From positions 1 to 57,961 of the forward strand of contig JAFZUS010000116.1 of assembly GCA_017618275.1 (NCBI GenBank): DNA of 57,961 nt. Reading direction: 5' to 3'. Positions 53,617 through 57,961 of the stretch are shown here, piece after piece (the stretch's first letter is position 1; each line of letters opens with the position of its first letter). The notes below the pieces were generated by a model, which was not told where the DNA came from, did no database searches, and worked only from the letters and a program-made list of their open reading frames with translations. A program made the translations under genes and the position numbers. Source of the stretch: Prevotella sp. GTDB taxonomy: Bacteria; Bacteroidota; Bacteroidia; Bacteroidales; Bacteroidaceae.

Positions 53617-53733
53617 TGCGACAGATTTTGAGGGGAAAGAGGAACTTTGTCGCAATATAGGATGAGTGTCGCATCATCTCTCAACGAAAAATACAAAAAA
53701 ACTTGGAATGTGTTCATAATCGTCATAATTTTG
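53617..53733 (+). promoter_or_regulatory. Three-box TGTCGCA module and promoter, copy 1
   Basis: TGCGACA (53617-53623), TGTCGCA (53648-53654) and TGTCGCA (53667-53673) precede TTGG (53703-53706) and TAATTTTG (53726-53733, 19-bp spacer). Every box is at exactly the same relative position in the module at 55549-55665. The 155-nt leader to the ATG at 53889 holds no other gene. Confidence 0.8.
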
Positions 53734-53888
53734 CAGTGTCAAACCGATGGAGCAGCGAGAGACATCAAGTTCACTTGAATGGCAGAGTCGCGACAGAGGA
53801 AGACGAAGTCAAAGGAACAAACAACCTCCTGACGACGCAAAAGAGACAATTAATAAAATTAATGTATAACAATTAAAATTTTACGATT

Positions 53889-55532
53889 ATGACAACAAAA
53901 AAGAATTTGGTAAAGATGGTGCTCATGAGCGCTCTTACCGCAGGAACAATGTTTGGTTTCACCGCTTGCAGTGACGACAGTGATCTCGTAAACGACAATC
54001 TCAACACCCCTTTGGAGAAAGAGTACAATGGTCCCGCTCTGGAGTCGTTAGGTCTTAACTTCCAGGACTTCGTTGCTGAGGGCGACGTGAGGATAGTGGA
54101 TGCCGACACCACACAGATTTCAGTCAGTAAGGCTTTTGCCGACAAGATGGGTATCAAGTCGTTCGCCGGTCACCCCATGGGTATCCGTCAGAGCATGGAA
54201 GAAGATGCCTATATGTGTAAGGCCACCCGCCAGAAACTCGTTGGCGACCGCTACATCATCGACGTGGCTCCCTGTTCGATGGCCGAGTTGCTGAAAGGAC
54301 AGAAGTTTAACATGAGTTCCGACCTCTATGTCAATATGAATCCTGCAGAGACCCGCACACGTGCTGCCGAGCTGAACATCCCGGAGTATTCAGCCAAGTT
54401 CGTTGATGATGACAACGTCATCCACCCCACAGCCGTTACCTACCGTCCTGCCACTGGCGAACTGGGCGTAACGCGCAGCAGCATTTCCCACTATGGTACC
54501 TACTCGGCAGAGGACATCATGATGGCACGTATGAACGACGGCACACGCTGGTGGCCAATGGACGAAATCAAAGAATGGGTTGTGGACAAGGCTAAGAAGG
54601 CTTACGAATTCGCCGACAAGAAAACCAAGTACAGTGTCAACAAGTATTATCGCGACAAGTCGCTCGTCCAGGAAAACACCACTTTCGAGAAGAAGATTGA
54701 GTTCGGTCCCAAGGCTAAGAGAAAGGGTGAGAAGCCTGATACATTCAACGTCACCGTCACGCTTCCCGTCGATTTCGCACTGACCTACAACTTCATCCTC
54801 GATGCCACTGGTTCGGCGGTCAGCCTGCCCGATGTCAGAAACTTCGAGACCAGTGTAGCCGGTACCTTCGAATTCTCGCCCCAGGTCACCCTCGGTTTCA
54901 GCAAGAAGTTCGAGATTCCCGAAGACAAGCAGCGCCTGAAGCTAGCAAAATTCCCCTCTGTATCGCTCCACTTCACGATCGGCATCATCCCCGTCACTGT
55001 CAGTATCGATCCCTACGTATTCCTGAAGTTTGAAGGTGAAGTATCAGGCAGCGCCTATACAGGCATCAAGTACCACTACGCCAGCCACTTCAAGTTGGGT
55101 TGCACCTACAAAAACGGATGGGACTTCATCAGTGAGTACCAGACTGACGACAACACGCTGAGCATGATTCCCCCGACGGCAGAGTTCAAGGCACACGCAG
55201 GCATAGGCCTCATGCTCGGAGCAGACGTCATCGTCATGAAGTTGGCAGGTCCGAAGATTGCCATCGGTCCGAAACTCACCGCCGACGCAGAACTCAGACT
55301 GAACCAAGACGTAGATCAGTGCTACTTCAAGTCATCAGTAAATGTAGGTTTCGTAGGTGAAGTCGGTGCCAAACTGAAGATCTGGGAATGGGAACTGGGT
55401 GACTTCACACAAGACTTTAAGTTCGGAGAACCCTACAACATCTTCCACTACAACTTCCCACATGAGGAGGGTGACGATAGAAACGGAAACCTCGACAGAG
55501 TCATGAAACTGTTGATGCCTTTCAAAAACTAA
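53889..55532 (+). CDS. Lipoprotein of unknown function
   Basis: This 547-aa lipoprotein has a signal peptide with lipobox FTAC (cysteine 27) followed by an acidic SDDSD stretch, a common surface-export signal in Bacteroidota. The rest is soluble, beta-rich in the second half (repeated TFEFSPQVTLGFSKKFEI-like strands), and without a family I recognise. It shares its upstream control region and signal-peptide style (KNL...VLMS...FTACSDDS) with the downstream clostripain-family protease, so the two may act together at the cell surface. Confidence 0.8.
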   Translation: MTTKKNLVKMVLMSALTAGTMFGFTACSDDSDLVNDNLNTPLEKEYNGPALESLGLNFQDFVAEGDVRIVDADTTQISVSKAFADKMGIKSFAGHPMGIRQSMEEDAYMCKATRQKLVGDRYIIDVAPCSMAELLKGQKFNMSSDLYVNMNPAETRTRAAELNIPEYSAKFVDDDNVIHPTAVTYRPATGELGVTRSSISHYGTYSAEDIMMARMNDGTRWWPMDEIKEWVVDKAKKAYEFADKKTKYSVNKYYRDKSLVQENTTFEKKIEFGPKAKRKGEKPDTFNVTVTLPVDFALTYNFILDATGSAVSLPDVRNFETSVAGTFEFSPQVTLGFSKKFEIPEDKQRLKLAKFPSVSLHFTIGIIPVTVSIDPYVFLKFEGEVSGSAYTGIKYHYASHFKLGCTYKNGWDFISEYQTDDNTLSMIPPTAEFKAHAGIGLMLGADVIVMKLAGPKIAIGPKLTADAELRLNQDVDQCYFKSSVNVGFVGEVGAKLKIWEWELGDFTQDFKFGEPYNIFHYNFPHEEGDDRNGNLDRVMKLLMPFKN

Positions 55533-55548
55533 TAACAAACAACGTCAA

Positions 55549-55665
55549 TGCGACAAATCTGGGGGCCATAAGCCCCCTTTGTCGTAAAATAAGGTATGTG
55601 TCGCAACTACTCGGAGCAAAAACCACGAAAAAAGTTGGAATCTGCCCATTATCGTCATAACTTTG
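55549..55665 (+). promoter_or_regulatory. Three-box TGTCGCA module and promoter, copy 2
   Basis: TGCGACA (55549-55555), TGTCGTA (55580-55586) and TGTCGCA (55599-55605) precede TTGG (55635-55638) and TAACTTTG (55658-55665). All offsets equal those of copy 1, exactly 1932 bp upstream. A hairpin (55561-55577) sits between the first two boxes in this copy only. Confidence 0.8.
55561..55580 (+). terminator. Probable terminator of the unknown lipoprotein gene
   Basis: GGGGGC, loop CATAA, GCCCCC, followed by TTT, 28 nt after the stop codon. Confidence 0.6.
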
Positions 55666-55703: not shown

Positions 55704-56984
55704 ATGAAGACAATGAAGAATCTGGCAGCAACGGTGCTCATGAGCATCCTGGCCACAGCAACATTCACAGCATGTTCAGACGACTCTCTGGACTACGACG
55801 TACAGTATCAGAAGGAGGCCCAAAAGGCTAACGACAATACGGGTATTCAGCGCACGGTATTGGTATATATGGCAGGACGCAACAATCTGTCGTATTATGC
55901 CTCAGCCGATCTGGAAGAGATGAAGAAAGGTTCGATGAAGATAGGCGACAACCAGGCACTGCTGGTGTTCATGCGTCGCAACTACGAGGGCGAGCCCTGG
56001 CTGGCACGCATCAAGGACGGTGAGGTGATAGACAAGGTGACAATCAGCGACCTGGGCATCAGCAAGGACGAACTATATGCCAGCGATCCTGAAGTGATGG
56101 AGCAGGTGATGCATTATGCCTTCAGACGCTACCCCTCGGTGAAGGACGACTACGGGCTGGTGCTCTGGGGACACGGCGGCGGCTGGCTGTTGCAGGACTC
56201 TCTCAGTGTGGATCGGACTCGTGGCTATGGTGTTGACGTGGGTAACTACATCTACAGCCGTAATGGCAAGTGGATCAACATCCCTACCATGAATAACGTG
56301 CTGAGGCGCATGCCTCACCTGAAGTTCATCTTCGCCGACTGCTGCAACTTCATGTGTCTGGAGACGCTCTATGAACTGCGCCACACTGCCGACTACGTCA
56401 TCGGCTCACCAGCAGAGATTCCCGCCAATGGTGCTCCCTATGAGACAGTGGTACCCGCCTTGTTTGAGCCTACGACATATTACAGTTCCATCATCGACCG
56501 CTACTATGAGGCTGAGGGAGGTTTTCTGCCCCTCTCCGTAGTGAAGGCCAGCGAGATGGAGCATGTGGCACGGGCTACAAGGGAAGTGATGCAGAGTCTC
56601 GACAACCATGGGTACGATGGATTTCCTGACATGACGGGGATGATACACTACAACTACCTCAATGAGAAGGACTCGACGTTCCATCATCCGTACAACATCT
56701 TCTACGATGCAGGCAACTTCATCCAGACCTTCGCCACCCCGTCGGAATACCAGCAGTGGAAGCAGGCGCTCGATGCTGCCGTCATCCAGAAGCGTTATGC
56801 CTCTTCATGGAAAACCGACAAGTACTGGGGCATTTTCTACACCGACTTCGAGATGACTGAGGAGAAGTATCATGGCGTGAGCATGTTCGTACCACAAGAC
56901 CCCAGCATCAAGTTTGGCGAGAGATACCTCCAAATCAATCAAGACATCACACGACTACAGTGGTTTGGTGCTGTCGCAGAATAG
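55704..56984 (+). CDS. Clostripain-family (C11) cysteine protease lipoprotein
   Basis: This 426-aa lipoprotein (lipobox FTAC, cysteine 24) matches peptidase family C11. The catalytic histidine lies in LVLWGHGGGWLL (near residue 156) and the cysteine in FADCCNFMCLE (near 213). Family members cleave after basic residues and need an internal cut for activation. The conserved Cys-His pair is present, so it is probably active. I used the ATG at 55704; the open frame upstream runs through the promoter module. Confidence 0.9.
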   Translation: MKTMKNLAATVLMSILATATFTACSDDSLDYDVQYQKEAQKANDNTGIQRTVLVYMAGRNNLSYYASADLEEMKKGSMKIGDNQALLVFMRRNYEGEPWLARIKDGEVIDKVTISDLGISKDELYASDPEVMEQVMHYAFRRYPSVKDDYGLVLWGHGGGWLLQDSLSVDRTRGYGVDVGNYIYSRNGKWINIPTMNNVLRRMPHLKFIFADCCNFMCLETLYELRHTADYVIGSPAEIPANGAPYETVVPALFEPTTYYSSIIDRYYEAEGGFLPLSVVKASEMEHVARATREVMQSLDNHGYDGFPDMTGMIHYNYLNEKDSTFHHPYNIFYDAGNFIQTFATPSEYQQWKQALDAAVIQKRYASSWKTDKYWGIFYTDFEMTEEKYHGVSMFVPQDPSIKFGERYLQINQDITRLQWFGAVAE

Positions 56985-57059: not shown

Positions 57060-57961
57060 ATGCAGAAATCCCTGTCGGCACGGCTCACTTACCGCATCAT
57101 GGCGGTGGTTCTGGTGATGATGGTTGTCATTGCCGGCGTGGTGAATTTCACCGTCAGGAAGTACATGCTCGACGAGGCCGAGGAACGCTATCTGGGCTTC
57201 CTGCTCGAGAATCATCAGGAGATACGCCGCAAACTGTCGGATGTGCATGTGGCCGCAGAGAACAACGTCCACGACATTGAACGCGACATTGACAATCCCG
57301 ACAAGATGTTCGATCACATGCAGCGTATCATCCGTCAGAACCGCTCCATCGTCTGCTGCGCCTTGTTGTTCAAGCAAGACTATTATCCCAGCAAAGGCCG
57401 GGTATTCGTACCTTGTGCCAGAAAGGACGCGGCAGACAGTATCATAGTGTCGAGGATTGACAGCACATACAACAGCTACTTCTATGGTGAGTGGTTTCTT
57501 CAGCAGCTGAAGGCAGACCAAAGCGCCTGGACAAAGCCCTACTTCGAGAGCCGGTTTTTCGCTGGCAACCAGGAACCGCGACTGCTGACCACCTACACCG
57601 TTCCCATACACGACCACGAAGGACAGCCTGTGGCATTGCTTTGTGCCGACCTGTCGTTGGAGTGGTTGAGAAACGAGGTTATGGAGGACATTAGGGAGAT
57701 TAACAATCAGTACGAGAAAGGACTCCAACACCAGTCTTACTTCTTCATCGTTAATCGGGAAGGCACCTACATCATACATCCGAATAAGGAACTCATGCTG
57801 ACGCCTTGCGACAGGAATATTGGCAAAACGATGCTGGCACACCGAGGTACCTGCGTGATGGAGATCGACGGAGTGAAGTCAAGGCTGTACTATCGTTCCT
57901 TCAATTACGTGAATTGGACAATGGTCATTGTGGCACCTGAAGACGTGATTCTGGCTAACGC
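57060..57961 (+). CDS. Membrane sensor protein with periplasmic Cache-like domain (partial)
   Basis: The gene runs off the window end; 300 codons are visible. It has an N-terminal transmembrane helix (about residues 11-31), then a large periplasmic region with the Cache/PDC pattern (WFLQQLKADQSAWTKPYFE, LLTTYTVPIHDHEGQPVALLCADLSLEWL, and a second lobe SYFFIVNREGTYIIHPNKE). Such proteins usually continue to a second membrane helix and a HAMP, kinase, SpoIIE phosphatase or cyclase domain, which is not visible. The ATG at 57060 is set by the promoter at 57033-57040. Confidence 0.8.
   Translation, partial: MQKSLSARLTYRIMAVVLVMMVVIAGVVNFTVRKYMLDEAEERYLGFLLENHQEIRRKLSDVHVAAENNVHDIERDIDNPDKMFDHMQRIIRQNRSIVCCALLFKQDYYPSKGRVFVPCARKDAADSIIVSRIDSTYNSYFYGEWFLQQLKADQSAWTKPYFESRFFAGNQEPRLLTTYTVPIHDHEGQPVALLCADLSLEWLRNEVMEDIREINNQYEKGLQHQSYFFIVNREGTYIIHPNKELMLTPCDRNIGKTMLAHRGTCVMEIDGVKSRLYYRSFNYVNWTMVIVAPEDVILAN

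Follow-up and report, generated by a model that had tools for sequence, protein, structure and literature searches.

The window (the whole stretch of DNA analysed, a complete contig of 57,961 bases from a 3.6 Mb genome that is 92% complete) carries near its end two copies of a module made of three 7-base boxes and a promoter. This module probably combines a promoter with an activator platform upstream of it, on which a small AraC-type protein would act under the control of a sensor and a STAS protein. It corresponds to the pattern TGCGACA-N24-TGTCGCA-N12-TGTCGCA-N52-TAnnTTTG, in which the box starts are located 116, 85 and 66 bases ahead of the end of the -7 box and the three boxes are followed by A-tracts and by an ordinary Bacteroidetes -33/-7 promoter. 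At its end, the contig encodes in this order a cytidylate-kinase-like protein, a lipoprotein of no known family, a member of the clostripain family and a sensor that is truncated (Table 1). The observation of the two modules is confirmed as real and it extends beyond the window.

The offsets claimed in an earlier note on this DNA (31, 19 and 59 bases between the starts of successive elements, and 52 bases from box 3 to the -7 box) are exact in both modules. That note had also described three copies of TGTCGCA, the first one inverted, in each module; this is correct for module 1, whereas box 2 of module 2 reads TGTCGTA. The divergence announced between the boxes is observed as well, since 20 of the 21 box letters agree between modules 1 and 2 against 62 of the 96 other module positions, which include the -33 and -7 boxes (Fisher p = 0.004). 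Taken by itself, the word TGTCGCA shows no enrichment in the window (12 copies against 8.95 expected), and the rarity resides in the arrangement of the boxes and not in the word. By simple arithmetic on the box centres, 31 bases correspond to about three helical turns and 19 bases to less than two.

Table 1. Features of the window related to the three-box module. Module 1 extends from 53617 to 53733 and module 2 from 55549 to 55665; their -7 boxes start at 53726 and 55658, respectively.
Feature	Position	Strand	Description
Module 1, box 1	53617..53623	-	TGTCGCA on the minus strand; in register in relatives though outside the search pattern
Module 1, box 2	53648..53654	+	TGTCGCA
Module 1, box 3	53667..53673	+	TGTCGCA
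Module 1, promoter	53703..53733	+	-33 element TTGGAAT (53703-53709); -7 element TAATTTTG (53726-53733)
Lipoprotein, 547 aa	53889..55532	+	Presumed target of module 1; its L190 orthologue carries this module too
Module 2, box 1	55549..55555	-	Box read inverted
Module 2, box 2	55580..55586	+	TGTCGTA; variant letter also in the orthologue L190
Module 2, box 3	55599..55605	+	TGTCGCA
Module 2, promoter	55635..55665	+	-33 element TTGGAAT (55635-55641); -7 element TAACTTTG (55658-55665)
Clostripain-family (Peptidase_C11) protein	55704..56984	+	Pfam PF03415, E 1.1e-46; signal of the lipoprotein type; presumed target of module 2; we chose the start at 55704, the list of open reading frames beginning at an earlier ATG
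Lone TGTCGCA	56972..56978	+	Within the last codons of the C11 gene; probably no working module
Sensor, 5' part	57060..57961	+	Periplasmic PDC/dCache; opens the sensor-STAS-AraC set; truncated where the contig ends

A search of 150 genomes of the genus with the pattern TGTCGYA-N8..16-TGTCGCA-N40..60-TAnnTTTG detected the module in 36 genomes and at 108 places, and the reversed pattern, used as control, gave no match in the same 150 genomes. The earlier note had suggested such a scan and had envisaged that no other occurrence might exist; on the contrary, the module of these 36 genomes lies ahead of unrelated genes. A looser TGTC-TGTC pattern gave 238 hits in 46 of the 150 genomes (up to 19 per genome) against two control hits. 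In the genome of the window itself, the fixed patterns with up to three mismatches recovered only modules 1 and 2; a third copy, of the TGTCGTA type and with a 13/52 spacing, is located behind the araC gene of contig C159. The pattern is present in nine genomes and four of 30 genera of a family sample (349 genomes, including the genome of the window and some genus genomes already counted), and in an order sample of 344 genomes only the genome of the window carries it. A scan of named genomes recovered at least 118 stretches; among the matches listed, the titles are Prevotella, Prevotellaceae, Bacteroidaceae, Bacteroidales and one Muribaculaceae, and many of them name ruminant gut samples. Prevotella sp. 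ne3005, a record without a metagenome-assembly label, carries at least two modules. The locus L047 (G094:C3) contains three modules inside 1.5 kb, two of them ahead of one VanX-like dipeptidase gene (at 434 and 37 bases) and the third ahead of a DUF4468 protein.

The spacing was determined in 107 copies, parsed from 99 fetched loci and the window (G025:C33, one of the 108 places, was left out), and is nearly rigid. In 77 copies, the gap from box 2 to box 3 is exactly 12 bases and that from box 3 to the -7 box exactly 52; 14 copies are at 12/53 and 14 have other values within two bases; the remaining two parses come from a single short TGTCGCA array (L125). The 77 copies with the 12/52 spacing were reduced to 70 non-redundant copies for the conservation table, where the search pattern imposes the letters of boxes 2 and 3 and of the -7 box. 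Box 1, which was not part of the search, has at least six of its seven letters in 53 of these 70 copies, and its information reaches 1.03-1.34 bits at five of seven positions. The same threshold is reached in 106 of 125 copies among the named-genome matches listed, where some genomes are the same as in the genus set. The TTG of the -33 element, also unselected, is kept at 0.90, 0.89 and 0.67 per base, the TAnnTTTG at -7 being part of the search pattern. In the spacers of the 70 copies, 51 of 85 positions are below 0.3 bits; spacer conservation is strongest just ahead of box 2, just past box 3 and in the A-tracts, about 40 and 50 bases past the start of box 2. When the window is compared with the orthologous locus L190, all box letters (42/42, including the odd TGTCGTA) and all -33/-7 letters (30/30) are identical, against 141 of 162 other positions and 34 of 48 in the first spacer. 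A profile of 121 positions, built from 62 copies, scores its training copies at 53 or more, the copies with shifted spacing at 7-41 and reversed or complemented sequence at most at -24. Much of the spacer varies between copies whereas the boxes are conserved, and the uniform divergence that the earlier note had held against its own proposal is not what the 70 copies and L190 display. Neither an absence of other occurrences nor uniform divergence is found, and the proposed regulator that reads the boxes at fixed spacing is supported by the occurrences ahead of unrelated genes, the box conservation and the near-rigid spacing.

These data also bear on other origins of the shared boxes. A neutral tandem duplication, in which the promoter and signal-peptide region of the C11 gene would have been copied from those of the lipoprotein and the boxes would be leftover identity, agrees with the resemblance of the promoters and signal-peptide coding starts of the two genes, and pairs of consecutive modules are seen in relatives. 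As a full account it deserves hardly any credence, being refuted by the genus-wide occurrences ahead of unrelated genes, by the presence of the pattern in four genera and by the unequal conservation of box letters (20/21) and other positions (62/96); a duplication may be the origin of the second copy. It is also highly improbable that boxes 1 and 2 form an RNA hairpin (terminator or attenuator) with box 3 as a side effect. The second copy folds well (-22.1 kcal/mol), as do a few others, and 37 of 63 copies fold somewhat better than with shuffled spacers, but the pairing of the N24 in the 63 copies (0.425) equals the null obtained with reassigned halves (0.431), the distance to the -7 box is fixed and the boxes lie upstream of the presumed transcription start. 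A spread of the module by a mobile promoter cassette (MITE-like) would fit the 19 loose hits of one genome; whereas the copies of such an element are expected to be alike throughout, those of the module do not share much of their spacer sequence (51/85 positions below 0.3 bits), and the word changes while the geometry stays, which makes this explanation scarcely tenable.

The best candidate reader of the activator platform is probably an AraC-type (HTH_18) protein of about 190 amino acids, encoded by the last gene of a sensor-STAS-AraC set just past the end of the window. The last 141 bases of the window match the end of contig C159 exactly, and on C159 the remainder of the sensor (SpoIIE, HATPase_c_2) is followed by the STAS and AraC genes; since this contig continues the set, the window is the first half of one locus in which two presumed targets are followed by control genes. 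The third module, behind the araC gene of C159, has the words TGTCGCA/TGTCGTA/TGTCGTA (box 1 read inverted) and precedes a 192-amino-acid protein whose match to an outer-membrane beta-barrel family is weak and stays below the cut-off. At locus L048, a module lies ahead of a 786-amino-acid sensor, followed by a STAS protein and a 190-amino-acid AraC-type protein; this sensor is of the same family as the window sensor (63% identity over the 299 residues present in the window). The AraC-type protein of the window's genome matches HTH_18 (E 6.7e-16), as do five diverged paralogs, and no N-terminal effector-binding Pfam domain was detected at E 0.01; before residue 98, there are only weak matches of the coiled-coil type. 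Judging from these domains, the candidate is an HTH_18 protein and not a classical AraC. The set brings together a SpoIIE phosphatase, a RsbW-type kinase domain and a STAS domain. The serine stretch YISSSGLR was read in the STAS protein of L048, at a position that we take to be the RsbV/SpoIIAA-type phosphorylated serine site.

A further TGTCGCA had been reported before the sensor. It is present at 56972, 54 bases ahead of TATCTTTG, but it has no partner boxes, and the best profile score upstream of the sensor is -52.7 (compared with at least 53 for the 12/52 training copies and down to 7 for those with shifted spacing). In eight of the 11 scorable relatives, no TGTCGYA was found within 500 bases upstream of the sensor. 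The sensor as a third target through this lone box was rejected, the box not being conserved in relatives. A sensor with a module of its own is found in L175 and L323, where the module is close by, and in L322, where it is about 0.4 kb upstream. It is more apt to regard the sensor as the gene that opens the probable reader's set than as a further target. Between 57000 and 57040 of the window, the -7 box of the sensor abuts the T-run behind a terminator-like hairpin (GGAAGTTTTGGACTTCC), and a similar layout is present in L168 and L326.

The AraC-type protein and the module occur together in the genus. With the AraC of L048 as query and a cut-off of at least 112 bits (in this and the other protein searches, including those of G009 and of the family sample, only part of the candidates was scored in some genomes), 29 of the 150 genomes have both AraC and module, seven the module only, seven the AraC only and 107 neither (Fisher 6e-18, the p values of this association being inflated by the shared ancestry of the positive genomes). 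Among the genomes with AraC only, G048, G099, G120 and G127 have modules with other words, and loose hits occur in G034 and G136. The loose TGTC-TGTC pattern changes the counts to 34 with both, 12 with module only, two with AraC only and 102 with neither, and 208 of the 238 loose hits fall in the 36 AraC genomes. The module is found without such an AraC in G007, G041, G071, G085, G115 and G141 (61-94% complete), and G009 (99% complete) has 14 loose modules (L106-L112) and yielded no AraC of this group; five further genomes have one hit each with the loose pattern and no AraC. In the family sample, an AraC profile at E 1e-30 detected seven of 349 genomes, all among the nine with modules, and none of the 340 others; the module genomes without AraC are G213 and G248. 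Adjacency was recorded in 50 AraC loci out of 53 hits of at least 112 bits (G020:C96, G014:C67 and G031:C131 were left out). The -7 box of a module lies within 300 bp downstream in 14 of these 50 loci, against none of eight loci of a more distant AraC class; the other 36 have no module within 300 bp downstream, and some are near contig ends.

The module geometry is also found with other words. A scan for any 7-base word in this geometry (61 loci, 812 kb, window included; at least 17 of 21 matches) gave 36 hits, compared with none in the reversed sequence and 2, 0, 0, 0, 0 and 0 with shifted geometry; a few weak hits, with A/T-rich words (L176 and L315), look like chance. The words found beside diverged AraC genes include TGTCCGA (L182), TTGGCCA (L314, L315), TGGCACA (L311), TGTCAGC (L309), TGTCATG (L322) and TGTCGCT (L302); TGTCCAT is located 1.4 kb upstream at L308 and TGACGC 0.9 kb behind L183. 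The AraC tree reveals a clade of 15 rows (100/97) that contains six of the eight loci with a non-TGTCG word and none with a TGTCG word. The other 35 rows contain 14 loci with a TGTCG word, some of them with the module in the same stretch and not adjacent, and the exceptions L322 and L183. One residue of the recognition helix of the second HTH was read by eye, its role being assumed from the alignment with AraC and AdpA. This residue is Q in nine AraC proteins with adjacent modules, eight with TGTCG words and one with TGTCATG, and N, H or Y in six others (five adjacent, and L308), never with TGTCG words. L322 (TGTCATG) and L183 (TGACGC) break the clade and residue rules, L183 being, with its Q, a further exception to the latter. 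In these sequences, the word tends to follow the AraC clade and the recognition-helix residue, with exceptions. No reader was found beside the TGTCCGA modules of G069 and G101, and the TGTCCGA module of G120 is located 3.4 kb behind an AraC of the Q type, the relatives of which are paired with TGTCGCA.

The boxes could be real and be read by another protein, either an unlinked regulator or a response regulator, the AraC gene being merely carried by the same clade. The many modules of G009 without an AraC of this group, the module genomes G213 and G248 of the family sample and the TGTCCGA modules of G069 and G101 without nearby reader all speak for this explanation. We consider it unlikely, as a module lies directly behind 14 of 50 araC genes, the words change along with the AraC clade and the seven AraC genomes of the family sample all carry modules. 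In the preferred reading, that of an activator platform read by the AraC-type protein, the 7-base word would be bound by a small protein composed of a coiled-coil-like part of about 85-100 amino acids and an HTH_18 domain. Probably a dimer via its coiled-coil-like part, this protein would recruit RNA polymerase from fixed positions on the three-box platform, and we infer that it activates rather than represses; the alpha subunit of the polymerase could make use of the A-tracts that lie between box 3 and the -33 element. The membrane sensor, with its SpoIIE-type phosphatase and RsbW-type kinase domain, would set the phosphorylation of the STAS protein, the state of which would free or capture the AraC protein, in the way that a sigma factor is controlled by RsbU/RsbV/RsbW.

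The candidate reader shares the double-HTH domain of the AraC/XylS family (HTH_18), and its profile matches the solved chains of AdpA, the arabinose operon regulatory protein and SoxS. It differs from this family by a coiled-coil-like N-terminus in which no effector-binding domain was found, by its position beside a STAS gene and a phosphatase/kinase sensor and by the three fixed boxes with paralog-specific words. SpoIIE, HATPase_c_2 and STAS are side by side as in Rsb-type partner switching (RsbU/RsbV/RsbW; SiaA-like phosphatases), but here a single membrane sensor contains both the phosphatase and the kinase domain, and the third gene scanned, at the place where a sigma factor would be expected, is of the AraC type. 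In Bordetella, partner switching by BtrU/BtrV/BtrW is tied to type III secretion (PMC8256260), whereas here the relatives present type VI secretion, by position only, and through a predicted DNA-binding protein. The TAnnTTTG and TTG elements are those of Bacteroidetes -33/-7 promoters, for which PMC12632263 gives the -7 consensus TANNTTTGY; the rigid upstream three-box platform sets the module apart from them. In the openly licensed literature, we found neither the element nor a Bacteroidetes SpoIIE-STAS operon with an AraC gene described, and no paper on type VI secretion control in these bacteria.

The presumed targets of the module were defined as the first open reading frame starting within 160 bases, which gave 61 distinct first proteins after removal of duplicates. 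A lipobox or hydrophobic signal, detected by a crude rule of our own and not by a trained predictor, is present in 55 of these 61 proteins and in 18 of 37 other window genes (Fisher 9e-6); five of the six targets without signal are of the TssC or Hcp type. The Pfam families represented are PepSY_like (7), TssD (5), OMP_b-brl (4), Peptidase_C11 (3), DUF4468 (3), DcuA_DcuB (2) and TonB-dependent (SusC-like) barrels (2), with single cases of TssC, M15 (VanX-like), MATE, RND adaptor and SpoIIE sensor. One target, presumably the sensor, matches NCBIfam SiaA. The regulon appears to consist largely of exported proteins, namely surface lipoproteins, proteases and small secreted proteins, with type VI secretion in relatives. 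The lipoprotein of the window matches no Pfam or NCBIfam family at E 0.001, and its structure prediction from three sequences is not usable (mean pLDDT 30.9, pTM 0.22).

TssC is encoded in 23 of the 150 genus genomes, and we grouped these proteins into subtypes by score. In one subtype (11 genomes), the module is located before tssC or between tssC and hcp in seven genomes and is lacking in four. No credible module was found in the other 13 TssC loci, G016 having one A/T-rich 15/21 match on the opposite strand. At L171, L302, L305, L318 and L172, the type VI genes (tssC, hcp; DUF4280 in L302) are directly behind an AraC paralog; in four of these loci the module precedes tssC, and L172 has it between tssC and hcp. 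Because these readers beside type VI genes mostly have no adjoining sensor or STAS, partner switching need not hold for every member.

We give about even chances to a wider proposal, that rumen Prevotella combine orthogonal promoter dialects with partner switching on AraC and jointly switch contact weapons, surface lipoproteins and perhaps a small RNA. One rigid three-box geometry would be used with a 7-base word that differs between AraC-type regulators, the contact weapons would be type VI secretion and GG-leader peptides, and AraC would stand in place of a sigma factor. The analysis offers a candidate regulator, a DNA word and a gene list for a group of gut and rumen bacteria difficult to investigate. 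The paired regulators and words represent a natural specificity series for AraC-type proteins and may supply orthogonal promoters for Bacteroidetes. If partner switching does act on an AraC, the scheme reaches beyond sigma factors in this phylum.

Finally, 25 modules without large open reading frame close by were read. About eleven of them precede a U-rich stretch devoid of open reading frames and mostly ended by a hairpin, and four precede small leader-peptide-like open reading frames. The U-rich stretches lie behind eleven modules (in L085, L086, L089, L103, L122, L126, L127, L116, L072 and L110) and are weaker behind two more, in L063 and L120. They usually contain UUAGGUU and are mostly closed by a strong GC hairpin that starts about 64-139 bases past the -7 box. 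An Rfam search of the noncoding-looking targets gave no match at the gathering score, and the stretches are a candidate small RNA family. The four small open reading frames (L087, L090, L117 and L128) encode 36-45 amino acids and start 66-180 bases behind the modules. Their leader is of the ELENVNGG type, with GG in three of them and GS in L117, and resembles double-glycine leaders such as those described for the bacteroidetocins (PMC6671954).
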